64,000 bases of DNA, from positions 184,682 through 248,681 of the forward strand of contig NZ_KB907503.1 of the NCBI RefSeq assembly GCF_000382065.1, written 5' to 3'. The DNA is from Stenotrophomonas hibiscicola ATCC 19867 (lineage in GTDB: Bacteria > Pseudomonadota > Gammaproteobacteria > Xanthomonadales > Xanthomonadaceae). The notes under the pieces are model-generated. The model was not told where the DNA came from. It saw only the letters and a program-made list of their open reading frames with translations, and made no database searches. Positions 4,955 to 13,119 of this stretch are shown here, piece after piece (position 1 is the stretch's first letter; each line of letters starts with the position of its first letter). Made by a program: the position numbers and the translations under genes.

Positions 4955-5508
4955 TTCAGCTTCCGCAGCTTGAACGCCACCAGCACCTGCAGCAGCCCGT
5001 ACAGCAGGCTGCCAATGCCGATCCACAGCGTGGTCACCGCCACGCCTGCATACGGATTGGCCGCGAACAGCAGCCCCAGCACCGCCGCCAGCACGCCACT
5101 GAGGATCAGCAGCCACTCGCCCTGGATCTGCTTGCGCACGCGGATCGCGAACACGATGCGATAGATGCCGGCCACCAGCAGCCACGCCGCCAGGAACAGC
5201 ACCAGCACGCTGGCGGTGGCCAGCGGATTGATCACCGCCAGGATGCCGAAGCCCAGCGAGGCGATGGCATACAGCGCCAGCCAGCCGCGCGGAGCACCAT
5301 TGCCGCCGCTGATCAGTGCGAACAGGCTGATGACGCCTTCAACGATGGCCATCACGCCCAGTGTCCAGGCCAGTGCCATCGCTGCGGACAGCGGCCAACC
5401 GATGGCGATGATGCCGAAGCCCAGTGCGACGAGCCCGTACAGCAGCAGGATCCACCAGCTGCGCCCAACCGCCGACAACAAGGGAGACAAGGGGGAATTC
5501 ATGGCCAC
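4951..5508 (-). CDS. HdeD-like DUF308 membrane protein
   Basis: The 185-residue product has about six hydrophobic helices arranged as three similar pairs. Each holds a Gly-rich stretch such as LLYGLVALGFGIIAIGWPL, LASLGFGILAVINP and VLAAVLGLLFAANP. This is the DUF308/HdeD pattern, named after an E. coli acid-resistance membrane protein. The repeated G-x-x-AI-x-P pattern is clear by eye. It precedes and overlaps the SecD-like lipoprotein gene. Biochemical function is not established for most members. Confidence 0.85.
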   Translation of the reverse strand: MAMNSPLSPLLSAVGRSWWILLLYGLVALGFGIIAIGWPLSAAMALAWTLGVMAIVEGVISLFALISGGNGAPRGWLALYAIASLGFGILAVINPLATASVLVLFLAAWLLVAGIYRIVFAIRVRKQIQGEWLLILSGVLAAVLGLLFAANPYAGVAVTTLWIGIGSLLYGLLQVLVAFKLRKLK

Positions 5509-5560
5509 TCCTCCGATCCGGAACCGGCCTCATCCTAGCCCCTGTGGATGAAGAGGGCGA

Positions 5561-6256
5561 TCACGGCGCCCGCGCACAGACCCACACGCGCACCTCCGCT
5601 GCTCCGGCCAGGCGTAGCGTCTCGGCGACCTCCATCACCGTGCTGCCAGTCGTCATCACGTCATCGACCACGGTCAGCCGCGAGGGCACGGAACCACGCA
5701 CGTCGAATGCATCGAACAGGTTTTCCCTGCGCTGTTCGGCCGTGCGTTCAGACTGCGGTGCGGTATGCCGCTGCCGGTACACCCCCTGCCAGACCGGCAT
5801 CGGCAGCAACCGGCACAGCTCACCGGCCTGGTTGTAGCCGCGCTGGCGCAAGCGTCGCCTGTGCAGCGGCACCGGCACCAGCGGCGTGCACGACCACGGC
5901 GGCGGTGCGCGCTGCATCAGCTGCGCGAGCAGGCGTCCAGCGGCGAGATCCTGATGGAACTTGTAGCGGACCAGCAACTGGTCGACCGGTGGCAGGTACA
6001 GCAGGCTGGCGTGGGTAGCCGCCTGTGGCGGTACCTCCTCGCGGCAGGTGCCACAGACGATCAACGCGGTGTCGGGCAACGGCAAGGCGCAGCGCAGGCA
6101 GGCACGGCCTGCCCAGGGCAGATCGGCCAAGCAAGCCCAGCACAGATCAAGATCATCGTGGCCCGGGTCGCCGCAGACCAGGCAGCGGAGCGGTAGCAGC
6201 ACACCAAGCAGTGCGCGCGAGACACGGGTTGCCGAACGCAGGAGATAAGTACGCAT
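5561..6256 (-). CDS. comF: ComF family phosphoribosyltransferase-like protein
   Basis: The product (231 residues from ATG at 6256) has the two ComF parts. The first is an N-terminal zinc-binding cluster (RCLVCGDPG, LCWACLADLP, CLRCALPL, CGTC). The second is a C-terminal type I phosphoribosyltransferase fold with the PRPP loop LTVVDDVMTTGST. RRRLRQRGYNQA is also typical. ComF/GntX proteins are linked to DNA uptake and oxidative metabolism in other bacteria; their exact reaction is unsettled. A TTG start at 6331 would add 25 unlikely residues. In xanthomonads comF usually faces bioB, but here about 5.7 kb separates them and a broken second copy lies at 8350-8514. Confidence 0.9.
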   Translation of the reverse strand: MRTYLLRSATRVSRALLGVLLPLRCLVCGDPGHDDLDLCWACLADLPWAGRACLRCALPLPDTALIVCGTCREEVPPQAATHASLLYLPPVDQLLVRYKFHQDLAAGRLLAQLMQRAPPPWSCTPLVPVPLHRRRLRQRGYNQAGELCRLLPMPVWQGVYRQRHTAPQSERTAEQRRENLFDAFDVRGSVPSRLTVVDDVMTTGSTVMEVAETLRLAGAAEVRVWVCARAP

Positions 6257-6353
6257 CACCCAATACTTGATGGCGCACGCCGCGTGCGGCCATCGGCGAA
6301 GCACCGATTGCAGTGTCGGAACTGCCCTCAACTGCGACGGGGGCCGCCGCCCG

Positions 6354-7694
6354 TCAGGAAAGGCGTTCGCCCTGTCCGGTCGCCGGTGGCGTAGCGGCGG
6401 GCCCGATCAACAACTCCGCCAGCCCGCGATAGATCGGCACCCTGCACACCAGCCCGGACACGCCACGCGCGATCAGCACCGTGGCCAGTATCGGCAGCAG
6501 CAGGTCGCCGCTGTCGGTCAGCTCCAGCGAGATCACGGCCGACGTCAGCGGGGCCTGGGTAACGCCGGTCAGGTAAGCACACATGCCCAGCAGCACGAAC
6601 GCGCGCGGGTCCACGCCCGGCATCAGCACTGCCAGGTTGTGGCCGAGTCCAGCGCCGACCGCCAACGCCGGCGAGAACAGGCCGCCGGGAATGCCCGCCA
6701 CGTACGAGGCCAGATTGGCCAGCAGCTTCATCACCCCGAACTCGTGGCCGACCACCGCCTGCCCCTGCACCAGGCTGCGCGCCTGCTCATAGCCGGTGCC
6801 GAACGCGCCTTCACCGAAGACCAGGGCGAGCAGTACCACCACCAGGCCGCAGCCTGCGGCCAACAGAACCGGATGCCGCTGCCGCAGTTGCCCGAGCCAG
6901 CGCGGGCGGCCCGCCGCACTGGCCAGCACCGCACGCGCGAACAGGCCGCCCAGCAGGCCCGCCACCACGCCGCACAGCAGGATTGCCAGCCAGCCCTGGC
7001 CGAGCGGCAGGCGTGCGCTCACATGGCCGAAATAGGTGTAGTTGCCCAACAGGCCCAGCGACACCACGCCACCGACGATCACCGCAGTCAACAGGGTGCC
7101 CGAGAAGCGATGCTCGAAACGACCGCTGAGCTCCTCGATGGCGAAGACGATGCCGGCCAGCGGCGTGTTGAACGCCGCCGCGATACCCGCCGCACCACCG
7201 GCCAGCAGGAAGTGCGAGAGCTCGCGGGGATCCTTGAAACCGAACCAGCGGCCGAACAGGTACATCAAGCTGGCGCCTACGTGCACAGTCGGGCCCTCGC
7301 GGCCCACCGAGGCGCCACCCAGCAGTGACAGCGAGGTCAGCAGCAGCTTGCCGGCCGAAACCGCGGGTGAAAGGTTGGTCTTCCGGAACCGCTCATCGGC
7401 CTTGTCCAACGCGGCGATGACCTGCGGAATGCCGCTGCCGCGCGTGGGCTTGAGCACACCGGCGGTCAACCAGGCCAGCAGCGCGAAGATGCCCGGCGTC
7501 AGCAGCAGGGCCCACCACGGCGAGTGCGACGTGATGCGCTGGAACAGATGGAACGCCGCGTCGCTGGCCTTGGCGAACAGGATCGCCACCAGCGCCACGG
7601 CCACGGCGCCGCCCCAGAGCGCGGCGCGGCGGCGCCAGGCTTCGCTGAGAACCAGCGCGGTGATGCGGCCGCGGAGGCGATGGAGATCGGTCAT
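6354..7694 (-). CDS. ClC-type chloride channel/antiporter
   Basis: A membrane protein of 446 residues if ATG at 7694 is used; an upstream GTG or TTG start would add 27 poorly conserved residues. ClC filter motifs are visible: GSGIPQV, GREGPTVHVGAS and GIPGGLFSPALAVGAG. The sequence GGAAGIAAAFNTPLAGIVFAIEE is a long identity block of the family and includes the glutamate region after GREGP. No C-terminal CBS domains are present. Bacterial ClC proteins exchange chloride and protons or conduct anions across the inner membrane. It lies between intact comF and the comF/bioB relic, so it may be part of the material inserted there. Confidence 0.9.
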   Translation of the reverse strand: MTDLHRLRGRITALVLSEAWRRRAALWGGAVAVALVAILFAKASDAAFHLFQRITSHSPWWALLLTPGIFALLAWLTAGVLKPTRGSGIPQVIAALDKADERFRKTNLSPAVSAGKLLLTSLSLLGGASVGREGPTVHVGASLMYLFGRWFGFKDPRELSHFLLAGGAAGIAAAFNTPLAGIVFAIEELSGRFEHRFSGTLLTAVIVGGVVSLGLLGNYTYFGHVSARLPLGQGWLAILLCGVVAGLLGGLFARAVLASAAGRPRWLGQLRQRHPVLLAAGCGLVVVLLALVFGEGAFGTGYEQARSLVQGQAVVGHEFGVMKLLANLASYVAGIPGGLFSPALAVGAGLGHNLAVLMPGVDPRAFVLLGMCAYLTGVTQAPLTSAVISLELTDSGDLLLPILATVLIARGVSGLVCRVPIYRGLAELLIGPAATPPATGQGERLS

Positions 7695-7833
7695 GGGAAA
7701 GAGTCTGCGCGCCAGCGCTTCCGTTGGGCAGCGGCCACTTTGGCCGCAGCCCTTGCAGGATGCGGTGAAATGCACCGGTGCCGCCAGAAGGGCGCCCGGA
7801 GCACGGGCGGATGCGGCGATCTGCGGGACCTGA

Positions 7834-8151
7834 TCAGACCAGCATGCGATGGAGAATGTGGGTCAGCGTCAGTTGAGAACAACCTCGGTCCGGCAAGACA
7901 CCATCCTCGCCCGGCGTGCCTACCTCGAATCCTTCCTCAACGTCCTCGTAGTAAAGCAGCCCCTCGGGCAGTTGTGCGACCACCCAGACCCACTCAATCA
8001 TGCCCAGCCTGTGCAGCCGAACGGCACGGAATGGCAAACGCAGGGACTCGAAGACGGCTCGTTGCACAGGTGAGCAAGCCTGCAGTTGCTGCGAGATCAG
8101 GATTGCCAATTCTTCCCGGGTGATCGGCTGCCAGCTGTCCGGATAGATCAT
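7834..8151 (-). CDS. Hypothetical 105-residue protein
   Basis: I do not recognise this protein. It begins MIYPDSWQPITREEL, has a Glu/Asp-rich middle (YYEDVEEGFEVGTPGEDG) and an aliphatic strand EWVWVVAQLPEGLLYY, and has no signal peptide or membrane helix. The composition is that of a small soluble acidic protein and looks coding. It lies just left of the rearranged comF/bioB relic and probably belongs to the accessory segment. Confidence 0.6.
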   Translation of the reverse strand: MIYPDSWQPITREELAILISQQLQACSPVQRAVFESLRLPFRAVRLHRLGMIEWVWVVAQLPEGLLYYEDVEEGFEVGTPGEDGVLPDRGCSQLTLTHILHRMLV

Positions 8152-8262
8152 CGCAACGCGGCTCGACTGGGTGTGCGTGCCTCAAGGTACGTCAAGCGCG
8201 CCTCCGGCACCGCCATTTTGTTCGTGGCAGCCTTGGCACGGACGCCTCATTCCAGGTGCGAA

Positions 8263-8349
8263 CAATGTAAACCATAGGCCATCTCAAATGATTGGCCATA
8301 CGCCCCGCCACCTCCACACTGCGTTCACCGAAGGGCCGCGACATCCCGA
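8263..8349 (+). pseudogene. bioB: Relic of bioB leader with BirA half-operator and internal bioB fragment
   Basis: Bases 8263-8277 are identical over 15 positions to the left half of the true bioB operator region at 11983-11997. The next ~45 bases align loosely with the bioB leader (shared CACACTGC). At 8321 the sequence jumps to an internal bioB segment: 8321-8349 matches 12387-12415 at 24 of 29 positions and encodes RSPKGRDIP against RSPKDRDIP in BioB. The right operator arm is degraded. It ends where an antisense comF fragment begins. Confidence 0.6.
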
Positions 8350-8514
8350 TCGCAGACACGCGCGGCCGGACCAGGGCAACTCGGCCAGGGAGGCCGGGCA
8401 GAGGTCCAGGCCGTCATGGCCAGGATCGTTGCAGACCAGGCATCGGAAGGGAAGCAGCAGGCGAAGCGGCGCCTGCCCGGAACGTACCAGCCTGAATGTG
8501 GATATCAGCCCCAT
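8350..8514 (-). pseudogene. comF: comF fragment (N-terminal part only)
   Basis: Minus-strand translation gives FRCLVCNDPGHDGLDLCPAS and LAELPWSGRACLRSG. This matches the N-terminal zinc region of the intact ComF at 5561-6256 (RCLVCGDPGHDDLDLCWACL, LADLPWAGRACLRCA). Only about 55 residues survive. The phosphoribosyltransferase part is gone, and one cysteine of the cluster is changed to serine. At 8349/8350 the fragment abuts the bioB fragment head to head. Divergence from the intact copy suggests an old or foreign duplicate. Confidence 0.75.
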
Positions 8515-8636
8515 TCGTCCAGCTTCGCCACCCCTCCCCGTTCACCATCGGCGCAGCGGACGTTGGGCGGCGGGGTTTCCCCTACACGGCTGCCGGACAG
8601 GCGCCGGATGATTCGCCCGGCCCCCGTGTCCGGTCG

Positions 8637-8891
8637 TCAGCGCGTCTTGAACAACTTCCTGAGCCTGAGATAGCAGGGCATGATGATGAACGTACTGATG
8701 ACCGACCAGTTCTGCCGCAGCTGGATGCCGATGAGCAGGACGAACACGTCCACGCCAATCATGTTCACCAGCAGAACCACCGACAGCAGTTCCGGATTCG
8801 ACAGGAACAGGATCACCGTGGCGAACACGATGAGTGCGCCCCACTTGCGTGCGAACGGCGTGCTGAAGCGGCTGCGGAGGAAGCCCATCAT
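8637..8891 (-). CDS. Small two-helix membrane protein of the peptide/cupin cluster
   Basis: The 84-residue product has a basic N-terminus (MMGFLRSRFSTPFARKW), two hydrophobic segments near residues 18-36 and 38-57, and a basic tail ending RLRKLFKTR. The ATG at 8891 overlaps the stop of the upstream gene (ATGA), so it is translated together with the cupin protein. I do not recognise the family. As the last gene of a five-gene minus-strand set that includes a short hydrophobic peptide, it could serve in export or immunity. That is inference from position only. Confidence 0.65.
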   Translation of the reverse strand: MMGFLRSRFSTPFARKWGALIVFATVILFLSNPELLSVVLLVNMIGVDVFVLLIGIQLRQNWSVISTFIIMPCYLRLRKLFKTR

Positions 8892-9793
8892 CCGGCCGCT
8901 GCCTGTCCCTGTTCCAGCCAATGCCGTGCCGAACGACGGATTGCCGGATCGGCATCCTGTTCGGCCCTTCGCCACAGGCGCTCACGCTCATCGGGCGCAA
9001 GCAGCCCTGCCACTTCCAGGGCAGCATTGCGCACTCGCCAGTGGCCGGTGCCGAAGGCCAGCCGTTCGATGGAATCGTAGGCCTGGGTGGTGCCAAGCAG
9101 CGCAGCGAATGTCAGCAGCGACATGCACCCCAGATTCGGCGACGTAATGACCCCGGCAATGCGCTTGGCGGCGACATCGAAGCTGTACTGGTCGGCAAGC
9201 TGCTCGTAAGGCGGTACGACCAGAAGGTTCAGCGATATCGACAACTCTTCGCACGGCAACTGGGTGTGAACGTCCTCGCAGGCACGGAAAAGAATGACCT
9301 TGCCTCGGGGCAGGGAGGTCTTCTCAAGGTAGTCCAGCGCTACGGGCTCACCGATGTATCCCTGGATCCGATCAGGCTTGCACTCATGGATTTCGGTCCA
9401 GTAGCCACTGCCCAGGTAGCCCACCGTCAGCAGCTCGAAGTTGTGATTGTGTGCGTAGTTGTAGGAGTAGAGATTGGAATCGTGGTCCATGCTGCCCGCA
9501 CGGGCGACCGGCTTCTTCCAGACGTTGGCGCGCACCTTGAACGTCGGGTCGGAGTGCAGAATGATCGACTGGCTGGAAACGCCCATGTTGTCGTTGAAGT
9601 AGTCATCACGCTCCAGCAGCGACGAGTTGATGGCCCTGACCAGCAGTTCGCGGTCGTTCGCCAGCGCAGCCAGCAGATCCGATGCGCCGAGGATGCTGTC
9701 GTAATCGCCGTATCTGACATGACTGCGGCAATAGGAAACAAGGTCTTCCACACTGGCGGTGCCCTGCACGGCGGGATACAGGCTGAATGCCAT
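8888..9793 (-). CDS. Cupin-like protein with C-terminal HEAT-type helices
   Basis: I do not recognise this 301-residue protein as a named family. Residues about 110-190 look like a cupin. HNHNFELLTVGYLGSG gives a His-x-His and Glu metal-site pattern, and PRGKVILFRACEDVH gives the second motif with its histidine. Residues 230-295 form Ala/Leu/Arg-rich paired helices (WRVRNAALEVAGLL, DPAIRRSARHWLEQ) typical of HEAT-like repeats. The N-terminal 90 residues are helical. It follows a similar but motif-poor protein by 15 bases and overlaps the small membrane protein gene. A metal-dependent modification or sensing role is inferred, not shown. Confidence 0.7.
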   Translation of the reverse strand: MAFSLYPAVQGTASVEDLVSYCRSHVRYGDYDSILGASDLLAALANDRELLVRAINSSLLERDDYFNDNMGVSSQSIILHSDPTFKVRANVWKKPVARAGSMDHDSNLYSYNYAHNHNFELLTVGYLGSGYWTEIHECKPDRIQGYIGEPVALDYLEKTSLPRGKVILFRACEDVHTQLPCEELSISLNLLVVPPYEQLADQYSFDVAAKRIAGVITSPNLGCMSLLTFAALLGTTQAYDSIERLAFGTGHWRVRNAALEVAGLLAPDERERLWRRAEQDADPAIRRSARHWLEQGQAAAG

Positions 9794-9808
9794 GAACGTT
9801 TCTCCGCG

Positions 9809-10684
9809 TCAGTTGAGATGCGCCGCGATGGCGCGTTGCGCTGCGGCAGCGACCGCCGGATGGACATCCCGTGCCGCCTCCAGCAGATGGGGACGGGCAT
9901 GCTCGAGGTCAATCGCGCACAACCCCTGGAGCGCCGCCCAGCGGACAAAATGCGATTCATCGCGAACGAGCGCTGACAGCGTGGACAGAGATGCCTCCAC
10001 CGGCAGCACTTCGGTCTGGTGGATGTGCTGCAGCATCGCCGCACCCGCTTGCCGCCGTACCGGGCTGTCATGACTGGCCAGGGCCATCACCGACTGCAGC
10101 GACTGCCTGTCGAAGCACCAGATCAACGGCGCGTACACCTTGGGGTACAGCGTGAGCGTCAATGCCGGCGCACGCATCTGTACGTGCGGAATATCCTGGT
10201 TCATCAACAGCTCTGCAGACTCGCCCCGGCCCAGGCTGAGCGTACCGCGCTCCACGGCCTTTAGGCCCACCTTGAACGCATCCATCTGCGCGCCCGCGGG
10301 AAACCCATAGCGGGTCAACGAGAATTCGGGCCCACTCATGTTGCCGACCAGGCAGTTGAAATTGAGGCTCTGCAGCAGTTGCCCCGAGCGGGGTTTGCGT
10401 GCGACCAGCCGCAGCGAATAGTCCCGGGTGTCCATCACCACCCATTCTTCGGCCGTCTTGGACAGCCACTCAGGGTGGACGAGATCCCCGTTGGCAACGG
10501 CATGCAGGGTCTCGGCGACGATCAGCGACAACTCCTCCGACCGTAGAAGGCCATCAAATGGTTCGCGGCAGTGGCCGGTCAGGTCCGCAGCGTTCCCCTC
10601 TGCCACGCAGGCATCGGCGGCGGCGGCCAGGGCACTGAGCCGGGGGAAGCGCCCCTCGGTCAGGTAGCGTCTGTGTTCATTCAT
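9809..10684 (-). CDS. HEAT-repeat protein with degenerate cupin-like middle
   Basis: Starting at ATG 10684 (MNEHRRYLTEGRF), the product has 291 residues. It shares the plan of the next gene product: helical N-terminus, a beta-rich middle (residues about 115-200), then HEAT-type helices (SPVRRQAGAAMLQHI, ESHFVRWAALQGL, VHPAVAAAAQRAI). The middle lacks the His-x-His pair and keeps only a lone histidine in NQDIPHVQM, so it probably does not bind a metal as a cupin would. The pair looks like an ancient duplication with one catalytic-type and one scaffold-type copy. An upstream start at 10729 is possible but less likely. Confidence 0.65.
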   Translation of the reverse strand: MNEHRRYLTEGRFPRLSALAAAADACVAEGNAADLTGHCREPFDGLLRSEELSLIVAETLHAVANGDLVHPEWLSKTAEEWVVMDTRDYSLRLVARKPRSGQLLQSLNFNCLVGNMSGPEFSLTRYGFPAGAQMDAFKVGLKAVERGTLSLGRGESAELLMNQDIPHVQMRAPALTLTLYPKVYAPLIWCFDRQSLQSVMALASHDSPVRRQAGAAMLQHIHQTEVLPVEASLSTLSALVRDESHFVRWAALQGLCAIDLEHARPHLLEAARDVHPAVAAAAQRAIAAHLN

Positions 10685-10744
10685 TTTGTCACCATCGGGT
10701 AAGCGTTCAACATCCGTTCGTAACGCCACGCGTGCCCGCGCAGA

Positions 10745-10769
10745 ACCCCTCCCCGGAACGGGGAGGGGT
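10745..10769 (-). terminator. GC-rich hairpin between peptide gene and downstream operon
   Basis: A perfect 10-bp stem (ACCCCTCCCC / GGGGAGGGGT) with a 5-base loop lies 16 bases after the peptide stop codon. The minus-strand sequence beyond it has only a short T-rich run (TTCT), so it is more likely a partial terminator or RNA-stabilising hairpin than a full stop. Such an element would raise the peptide transcript above the downstream protein genes. Confidence 0.6.
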
Positions 10770-10784
10770 CCCGCGGGTGCATGC

Positions 10785-10895
10785 TTACAGAATGACGACT
10801 GCGATGGTGATCACGATCCCGAGCTCGGTGGTCGTATTGGTGGTCGGGGCGACGTCATCCAGCAGATCTTCCAGTACGACAGACTTGCGTTCCAT
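10785..10895 (-). CDS. 36-residue peptide, candidate modified-peptide precursor
   Basis: The reading frame from ATG 10895 to TAA at 10785-10787 is preceded by AAGGA at 10903-10907 with good spacing. The peptide has three zones: a charged leader-like start MERKSVVLEDLLDDV, a Thr-rich stretch APTTNTTTE (residues 16-24), and an aliphatic end GIVITIAVVIL. There is no cysteine. The last 12 residues are too few for a normal membrane helix. It has its own downstream hairpin and is followed by two cupin/HEAT proteins, which is how precursor peptides of RiPP-like systems are usually placed. Alternatives are a small toxin or a signalling peptide. The family is unknown to me. Confidence 0.6.
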   Translation of the reverse strand: MERKSVVLEDLLDDVAPTTNTTTELGIVITIAVVIL

Positions 10896-11006
10896 GCTGC
10901 ATCCTTTTGGCGAGTAGAAGTAAAGAGTTGATTGACCGGGCGTCGTCGCGGTGCGAACCATGCCCGGCCTGATTACATCTACTTGCACACTCAAGGCGCA
11001 AACGTT

Positions 11007-11027
11007 CTGCTGTGCGACGCACAGCAG
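11007..11027. promoter_or_regulatory. Perfect dyad upstream of the peptide gene (candidate operator)
   Basis: CTGCTGTGCG and its complement meet around a single central A at 11017. The dyad lies 16 bases past the regulator stop codon and 112 bases before the peptide start. It could be the HTH protein's operator. As an RNA it could also fold into a hairpin that ends the regulator transcript, although no T-run follows on the minus strand. Confidence 0.5.
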
Positions 11028-11042
11028 TGGATGCAAGGTGTA

Positions 11043-11417
11043 CTACAGGTACGTCTCGGCGTTTTCAAGAAGGGCGACGACACTGGCAAGGAATGACACA
11101 GGCAGATGCTTTGACAGCAACAGCAGCTTCGCCTCCAACCCGGCGCGCACGCCCCCCATCTCCACCGGCAGTGGAACGTCCTCGCCATGCAGCAACCAGG
11201 CTGAGCTCACCTGCATGACCTGGCTCAGTGCACGCAGATGGTCGACACTCGGTGCAAAGCCATTCTCGCGTTCCCAGTGCCCGATTGTTGCGCGATTGAC
11301 GGCGAGCTTCTGCGCCAGCTCGGTCTGGGACATCCCGACCCCGATCCTGGCAGCACGGATCCTCGCTGCCAGGGAACTCGTCTTACCATCCAAACAGTCT
11401 CTCCACTGCTTCCGCAT
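11043..11417 (-). CDS. Cro/C1-type HTH transcriptional regulator
   Basis: The 124-residue product (ATG at 11417) has an N-terminal helix-turn-helix of the Xre type: LAARIRAARIGVGMSQTELA, then AVNRATIGHWERENG and LRALSQVMQVSSAWLL. The last segment and the G-E-D-V-P after it match the common end of phage-type repressors. The C-terminal 45 residues are Leu/Val-rich and may dimerise. It is the first gene of the minus-strand peptide/cupin cluster, and a perfect dyad sits just downstream of it, so it probably controls that cluster. Confidence 0.82.
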   Translation of the reverse strand: MRKQWRDCLDGKTSSLAARIRAARIGVGMSQTELAQKLAVNRATIGHWERENGFAPSVDHLRALSQVMQVSSAWLLHGEDVPLPVEMGGVRAGLEAKLLLLSKHLPVSFLASVVALLENAETYL

Positions 11418-11585
11418 GCGCGGTCTTCGAGACTCTATCAATCCCGGAGCGCGAGTCAAACCGCCGCGCACTGACAGCGGTGCCCGCACCGGGTCGGCCA
11501 TTGCGCCCTGCACCGCGCGTTCTGCACCAGGAGGGGCACACGCTGCGCGTAGAGCACGTCGGGTATTCCTGGGTGTCGCTGCCGG

Positions 11586-11915
11586 TCAGCGCGGCGATGT
11601 TCTGTCGCGCTGCTCGGCAAGGTGGGCATCGCTGTCGGGCTCCTCCTCCGTGTCGCGCAGGCAGCCATTGATGGCCAGCAGGCGAACCAGCACGTACAGA
11701 CCGATCGCCTGCAATTCCTCGTTCGGCAGCGTCGACGGATCGAGCTGCCCCGCCGCGTAGTCCTTGAAGGTCACGAAGAAGCGATTCTGCCAATGCCCAG
11801 ATTCACCCGTCTGGCGCAGATCATCCATCACCACGCGCAGGCCGCCGTCGGGCAGTTCGGCCAGGCTGCACAGCACCGCATCGCGGCGGATCGGGTGGGG
11901 CTGGTAGCTGTCCAT
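11586..11915 (-). CDS. Hypothetical 109-residue protein divergent from bioB
   Basis: Starts at ATG 11915 (MDSYQPHPIRRDAVL). It appears soluble and acidic at the C-terminus, with HWQNRFFVTFKDYAAG and EELQAIGLYVLVRLLAINGCL as its most structured stretches. I do not recognise it. Its 5' end faces bioB across the BirA operator, so its promoter may share that region. An upstream GTG or TTG start would add residues with no conserved look. Confidence 0.6.
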   Translation of the reverse strand: MDSYQPHPIRRDAVLCSLAELPDGGLRVVMDDLRQTGESGHWQNRFFVTFKDYAAGQLDPSTLPNEELQAIGLYVLVRLLAINGCLRDTEEEPDSDAHLAEQRDRTSPR

Positions 11916-11984
11916 TGCAGGTGCTCGCGAGTCCGTATGCAGCAATGAACTTACACCGCAGCGCACACTTCCAGCTATCGATCA

Positions 11985-12040
11985 ATGTAAACCATAGCCA
12001 GAACATTGAGGTTGACAGACTTCGCCAAGCCACCCACACT
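11985..12040 (+). promoter_or_regulatory. BirA operator overlapping the bioB promoter
   Basis: ATGTAAACC at 11985-11993 and GGTTGACAG at 12010-12018 form the two arms of a BirA site with a 16-base spacer; the E. coli consensus is TTGTAAACC and GGTTTACAA. The right arm contains TTGACA (12012-12017), a perfect -35 box. Seventeen bases later CACACT (12035-12040) is a weak -10, which would put the transcript start about 30 bases before bioB. Biotinyl-AMP-bound BirA would thus block RNA polymerase. The arms are clear; the -10 is tentative. Confidence 0.82.
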
Positions 12041-12075: not shown

Positions 12076-13119
12076 ATGGCTGCTGCCATCCGCCACGACT
12101 GGCAACACGACGAACTGCAGGCCCTGTTCGACCTGCCGTTGCCCGAGCTGCTGTTCCGCGCCGCGGCGGTCCACCGTGAGCACTTCGACCCGGCGCAGGT
12201 GCAGGTCTCCACGCTGCTGTCGGTGAAGACCGGCGGCTGCCCGGAAGACTGCGCGTACTGCCCCCAGGCGCAGCGCTACAGCACCGGGGTGAACGCGCAG
12301 AAGCTGATGGAGACCGACGCGGTGCTGGCCAAGGCACGCCAGGCCAAGGCCGCCGGTGCATCGCGCTTCTGCATGGGTGCCGCATGGCGTTCGCCGAAGG
12401 ATCGAGACATTCCGAAGGTCGCGGCGATGATCGCCGGGGTGAAGGCACTGGGTCTGGAGACCTGCGCCACGCTGGGCATGCTCAGCGGCGAACAGGCGCG
12501 TGCGCTGAAGGACGCCGGCCTGGACTACTACAACCACAACCTCGACACCGCGCCGGACTACTACGATTCGATCATCCACACGCGCCAGTACCAGGACCGC
12601 CTGGATACGCTGGAACACGTGCGCGATGCCGGCCTGAAGACCTGCTGCGGCGGCATCGTCGGCATGGGCGAGACGCGCGCGCAGCGCGTCGGCCTGCTGC
12701 TGGCGCTGGCCACGCTGCCGGCGCATCCGGATTCGGTGCCGATCAACAAGCTGGTGCAGGTGGCGGGTACGCCGCTGCATGGCAGCGCCGAACTGGACCC
12801 ATTCGAGTTCGTGCGCATGATCGCGGTGGCCCGCATCGCCATGCCGCGCTCGATGGTGCGGCTGTCGGCCGGGCGCGAGGCGATGAGTGACGAACTGCAG
12901 GCGCTGTGTTTCCTGGCCGGCGCCAACTCCATCTTCTACGGCGACAAGCTGCTGACCACCGGCAACCCGGAAAGCGAGCGCGATCTGGCGCTGTTCGCAC
13001 GGCTGGGGCTACAGCCGATGGCGGTGCAGGTGGATGCCGAAGGCCACGACCACGGCGGTACCGTGCACGCCGATATCAGTGCCGATACGCCCGGCTGTGG
13101 CTGCGCTCACGCGGCCTGA
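12076..13119 (+). CDS. bioB: Biotin synthase
   Basis: This 347-residue radical-SAM enzyme converts dethiobiotin to biotin. The [4Fe-4S] motif [10 protein letters not shown] lies near residue 56. Also visible are the family blocks [34 protein letters not shown] and [17 protein letters not shown]. The Cys and Arg ligands expected for the auxiliary [2Fe-2S] cluster sit in these blocks. A His/Cys-rich tail (GHDHGG...GCGCAHAA) ends the protein. AAGG at 12064-12067 precedes ATG 12076. It is first in the bioBFH-SDR-C operon, behind a BirA operator. Confidence 0.98.

Follow-up and report, generated by a model that had tools for sequence, protein, structure and literature searches.

Positions 8250-8514 of the window, by which we mean the whole 64,000-nucleotide stretch of Stenotrophomonas hibiscicola ATCC 19867 DNA analyzed here, carry a recombination scar with no function of its own. 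This scar is probably the seam between two stacked alleles of the comF-bioB interval, where a donor interval was set beside the resident one through homology in bioB and an illegitimate joint at the other end. The source genome holds two alternative cargoes in a row where its relatives hold one. The left unit runs comF, ClC, small ORF, leader and broken bioB, and the right unit runs broken comF, peptide cluster, ORF 11586, leader and bioB. Comparison genomes are given below by G numbers, and the two broken genes at the seam are denoted bioB' and comF'.

The scar consists of three pieces: a relic of the bioB leader, an internal bioB fragment and an antisense comF fragment (Table 1). The leader relic aligns with the intact leader (11969 onward) at 57 identities, with a score of 39, while the best of 1000 dinucleotide shuffles reached 30. 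It retains the left operator half-site TGTAAACC and lacks the right one; the only complete copy of the operator in the window, TGTAAACC-N16-GGTTGACA, precedes the intact bioB. About 350 bp are absent between the leader relic and the bioB fragment. The latter matches the genome's own bioB at 24 of 29 positions, a marginal result that one of 1000 shuffles equaled, and matches the same gene position in G037 (S. maltophilia Sm46PAILV) and G003 at 28/29, with a whole-genome E-value of ~2e-6. For comF', the alignment scored 84 and no shuffle exceeded 36, and its reading frame is open from the ATG at 8514. Chance similarity is excluded by the shuffles and the genus-wide matches, and the half-pieces are genuine and ordered as in a normal interval. 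The alignments and shuffles thus bear out the initial annotation, which had described a broken BirA half-site and bioB leader, the 24/29 bioB fragment and an antisense comF piece meeting at 8349/8350. Its coordinates for the intact comF and the operator-bioB were also correct, as was the order comF, leader-bioB', comF', leader-bioB; it also rightly assigned the ClC cargo to the left unit and the peptide cluster to the right.

The joint itself is nearly blunt. As read from the alignments with G037 bioB and comF, bioB nt 340 meets comF codon 55 with a 1-bp overlap. No repeats lie beside the joint, and the sole long direct repeat across the two units is the comF/comF' pair; joining mediated by repeats was rejected on these grounds. 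The antisense ORF that runs from comF' into bioB' is probably without meaning. The relic had no Rfam match, and no promoter-like or terminator-like site was found at 7700-8700.

Table 1. Features of the scar and of the two units in the window.
Feature	Position	Strand	Remarks
Intact comF, left unit	5561-6256	-	Pfam DZR_2 and Pribosyltran
ClC chloride channel/transporter gene	6357-7694	-	Voltage_CLC, 1.3e-88
Small ORF, left unit	7834-8151	-	105 aa; same place in G024 and G031, between ClC and bioB leader
bioB leader relic	8250-8322	+	Only the left operator half-site TGTAAACC remains
Chimeric ORF	8284-8514	-	76 aa; comF' running into antisense bioB'
Internal bioB fragment (bioB')	8321-8349	+	About nt 311-340 of the gene; overlaps the leader relic by 2 bp
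bioB'/comF' joint	8349-8350	.	Apparently illegitimate; one shared base (A)
comF 5' fragment (comF')	8350-8514	-	Codons 1-55, 165 bp, frame open; zinc-ribbon Cys to Ser
Peptide cluster, first ORF	8637-8975	-	112 aa; homologue in G088 directly upstream of comF
Peptide cluster protein	8888-9793	-	Weak HEAT similarity
Peptide cluster protein, HEAT repeats	9809-10684	-	HEAT_2, 7.5e-07
Peptide cluster, 36-aa peptide ORF	10785-10895	-	No family match
HTH_3 (XRE-type) regulator	11043-11420	-	Family match
ORF 11586, right-hand, beside bioB leader	11586-11966	-	Nearest G034/G062; missing from the G015 interval
Complete bioB operator-like palindrome	11986-12017	+	TGTAAACC-N16-GGTTGACA
Intact bioB, right unit	12076-13119	+	TIGR00433, 7.2e-123; 5' part mosaic, nt 445-905 as in G015

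The ancestry of comF' is informative about the origin of the second unit. Its nucleotide identity is 91% to the comF of G037 and 74% to the comF of its own genome, and in a tree of this stretch it groups with G037 at a distance of 0.11, with its own comF at 0.73. Over codons 19-55, pS and pN are 0.20 and 0.026 against G037, and 0.66 and 0.114 against the genome's own comF. Since the differences between comF' and the resident gene are mostly synonymous, the divergence accrued while both genes were functional, in different genomes. Judged by these substitutions, comF' is a foreign allele, and its decay after the event, seen in the zinc-ribbon change, is slight. The donor's identity is uncertain given how short the pieces are (165 bp of comF' and 29 bp of bioB). 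The bioB fragment lacks the power to tell resident from donor, as it also matches G015 at 26/29. The leader core was tried as a donor marker and was uninformative, with the genome's own leader, G040 and G038 each at 18/24.

These values bear directly on the history proposed by the initial annotation, a tandem duplication of the genome's own comF-operator-bioB followed by a deletion across its middle. The order of the pieces fits such a duplication exactly, and the leader relic scores higher against the genome's own leader than against any other (at most 30), by a slight margin. Nevertheless, this origin is very unlikely: comF' and the resident comF differ at ~66% of synonymous and 11% of non-synonymous sites, as two functional genes would after diverging, whereas the synonymous difference from Sm46PAILV is ~20%. 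In addition, comF' resembles the gene of another genome and continues into cargo that adjoins comF elsewhere, so that a duplication would require the later replacement of one copy. A recent duplication of the genome's own genes is excluded by this divergence. The other possibility raised at the outset, a junction supplied by the donor itself, is supported by the same identities, tree and pS values, as well as by the continuity of this junction in G088.

Indeed, both parental layouts survive in relatives. The sequence comF, ClC, ORF 7834 and leader is also present in G024 and G031, where ~95 bp separate the ORF 7834 homology from the bioB leader, versus ~50 bp here; the left unit accordingly has a layout that existed beforehand. 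In G088, an intact comF runs unbroken through the homologue of the 112-aa ORF (the equivalent of 8351-8951); beyond this point lies a deletion, after which the sequence resumes at the counterpart of 11843 and continues into the bioB leader. Comparison with this genome shows that comF, peptide cluster, ORF 11586, leader and bioB form a natural layout too. The right unit is therefore a pre-existing alternative allele of the whole interval that arrived as a unit. As for the cluster itself (8637-11420), its members mostly have no family names. A copy with 68% identity is located elsewhere in G078 (contig C67, L158), and the version adjoining comF in G088 (L097) carries the deletion.

The flanks of the two units are mosaic. 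The sister of the backbone is G015 (S. geniculata ATCC 19374), the top-scoring of the 91 genomes in a distant 3-kb control stretch, with 96% identity. Several 200-bp segments of the ClC gene and of the left flank match G015 at 99-100% identity, while comF', the peptide cluster and ORF 11586 have no counterpart within the G015 interval; the right unit therefore looks like the newcomer. G015 itself carries a different cargo between comF and ClC. Segment identities divide the intact comF into a 3' part that is G015-like and a 5' part, from ~6050, that is closest to G044, G048, G037 and G053. This other lineage accounts for the stretch at 6050-6550, which covers the 5' part of comF together with the comF-ClC spacer, whereas the remainder of comF and ClC is G015-like. 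On the right, ORF 11586 and the bioB leader are nearest to G034 and G062, with similarity extending to ~12050. Within bioB, the single-nucleotide polymorphism (SNP) map revealed rare alleles common to G043 at nt 309, 327, 330, 345 and 378, suggesting that nt 309-378 (12384-12453 in the window) form a small exchange tract with G043-type alleles; nt 445-905 are identical to G015. The bioB mosaic reaches ~nt 440, with an exact crossover that is not identifiable from the SNP map. The mosaic breaks fall near 6050 in comF and within nt 205-440 in bioB.

The two breaks leave room for other routes to the same structure. One is the mirror image of the history we favor, with the peptide-cluster unit as resident, and comF, ClC, leader and bioB' entering through comF homology with the illegitimate joint at the bioB end. 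The structure is symmetric, and the resident comF has its own mosaic break near 6050, but the newcomer appearance of the right unit described above makes this polarity unlikely. The same pair of breaks would be expected if the stacked interval had formed in another species and been imported whole by two homologous crossovers, one in comF and one in bioB. We consider this highly improbable, as the scar occurs in none of the other genomes among the 91 and ClC, which lies between the breaks, is G015-like.

Under the history of a donor interval stacked beside the resident one, donor DNA carrying a full alternative interval would have paired with the resident chromosome by homology in bioB. We place the homologous pairing in this gene because it is intact, with a mosaic 5' part up to ~nt 440. 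The other end of the donor DNA, within its comF at codon 55, would have been joined illegitimately to the resident bioB at nt 340, yielding both cargoes in a row and leaving a single functional copy each of comF and bioB. Subsequent loss of ~350 bp may then have trimmed the broken bioB to the leader and 29 bp. We infer that one homologous exchange in bioB combined with one illegitimate joint is the simplest history. Alternatively, a donor fragment bounded by comF codon 55 and bioB nt 340 could have circularized by the joining of its ends and integrated by a single crossover, duplicating the flanks in the observed order. Both halves of the scar are nearest to G037, and there is a precedent in E. 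coli, where a search for homology-facilitated illegitimate recombination found that most scored events were single-crossover partial duplications (PMC3240628). The bioB half, however, is too short to serve as proof of donor DNA, and the integration would need a crossover that is not locatable, either within the leader or within the initial 310 bp of bioB. We regard this route as quite unlikely.

To what extent is the scar shared? It was found in one of 91 Stenotrophomonas species genomes, the source genome itself, which rules out an ancient, fixed arrangement, one of the two outcomes that would have counted against the initial annotation. Similarly, among 60 comF-bioB intervals (53 of them long enough), only that of the source genome contained a second piece of comF or bioB. 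A genus-wide protein search of the 91 genomes returned two comF matches only in the source genome and in G053 (S. pavanii LMG 25348), whose gene is split by a transposon.

The interval in which the scar lies is itself variable. Across the family, comF and bioB stand back to back in 97 genomes, with a median gap of 140 bp and a gap of at most 400 bp in 95 of them. In the outer Stenotrophomonas species the gap is mostly 76-256 bp, with nine at 0.8-2.2 kb. In the S. maltophilia complex, it measures 655-10610 bp with changing cargo in 42/42 genomes, these being the complex genomes with comF and bioB on one contig, source genome included. The comF-bioB interval of this complex is therefore a hot spot for the insertion and exchange of variable cargo, as the initial annotation had proposed. 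The comparison across Stenotrophomonas also revealed the pattern it had anticipated, in which some genomes have comF directly beside bioB and others have different cargo between the two. ORFs from 51 larger gaps formed 47 clusters, of which 25 had a single member. ClC is the commonest cargo (the largest cluster, with 31 ORFs), and other families include MFS, LysR, short-chain dehydrogenase, HipA, VgrG, Rhs repeats and the X-Tfes domain. No recombinase, integrase or transposase was present among the 36 Pfam families from 39 cargo representatives. G053 does carry a transposon, but it lies within comF and not in the cargo. Reading the cargo as a defense island was rejected, as PADLOC matches were weak only.

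We also asked whether the flanking genes follow the cargo beside them. Complex-wide, the similarity of the comF 5' end tracks the adjacent cargo (0/2000 shuffles), while the comF 3' end hardly does (53/2000 shuffles). The comF 5' end does not track the far cargo (379/2000 shuffles). Shared ancestry contributes to this pattern, which therefore lends support but is not decisive.

The locus has the features of a gene-exchange hotspot: differing cargo between the same core genes, an empty pair in outgroups and cargo without mobility genes. Oliveira and colleagues described integrase-free hotspots of this type flanked by core genes (PMC5635113), and the present interval resembles them in its two fixed core genes, its variable cargo, the lack of detected mobility genes and its mosaic flanks. 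Unlike the single-set intervals of its relatives, with one comF and one bioB, the source genome keeps two intervals in tandem. A process that could produce this is homology-facilitated illegitimate recombination, which is known from three transformable bacteria (PMC2884548), namely Acinetobacter, S. pneumoniae and P. stutzeri (cited in PMC2884548, PMC5361080). The resemblance lies in foreign DNA that attaches to the chromosome through homology at one end and by a joint nearly free of homology at the other; the one shared base at 8349/8350 and the foreign comF' agree with that process at those two points. Here, however, the process would be read from one natural scar with a 1-bp overlap, later trimmed by deletion, and not from measured events. 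A further parallel is found in the sequential displacement arrays of T6SS effector-immunity modules in Vibrio cholerae, for which the authors proposed the same process to explain stacked modules (PMC5361080). In both cases, a new module adjoins its predecessor at a conserved anchor, with truncated remnants and cargoes in a row. The kept immunity genes of the arrays are thought to be selected, whereas the remnants here derive from housekeeping genes and show no evident selection.

The scar is an unusually legible record of a second cargo being added without replacing the first, readable to the base at its joint. It offers a clear natural instance of an event of known type, at a locus that our literature search did not find described as variable in the S. 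maltophilia complex. A broader proposal, which we consider improbable, is that the comF-bioB interval of this complex is a cumulative exchange site in which whole intervals can be not only swapped but also stacked, with comF, of the DNA-uptake pathway, and bioB, a selected biosynthetic gene, as anchors. If so, the uptake of DNA from relatives would accumulate cargo over time.

Several additional observations emerged from the comparison. The comF of G053 (L156, ~5000-11100) is interrupted near codons 87-90 by ~25 kb of inserted DNA, and a comF half adjoins TniQ, an AAA protein and an 873-aa rve transposase, that is, a Tn7/Tn5053-like element in a competence-related gene. Five largely complete Stenotrophomonas genomes (G011, G016, G020, G022 and G069) contain comF without a match to bioB, and the bioB of G081 is in two pieces, pointing to a possible loss of biotin synthase. 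Finally, the records labeled Bacillus subtilis SK7B5 (L055) and Rickettsia endosymbiont of Bradysia (L047) contain Stenotrophomonas comF DNA and look mislabeled or contaminated.
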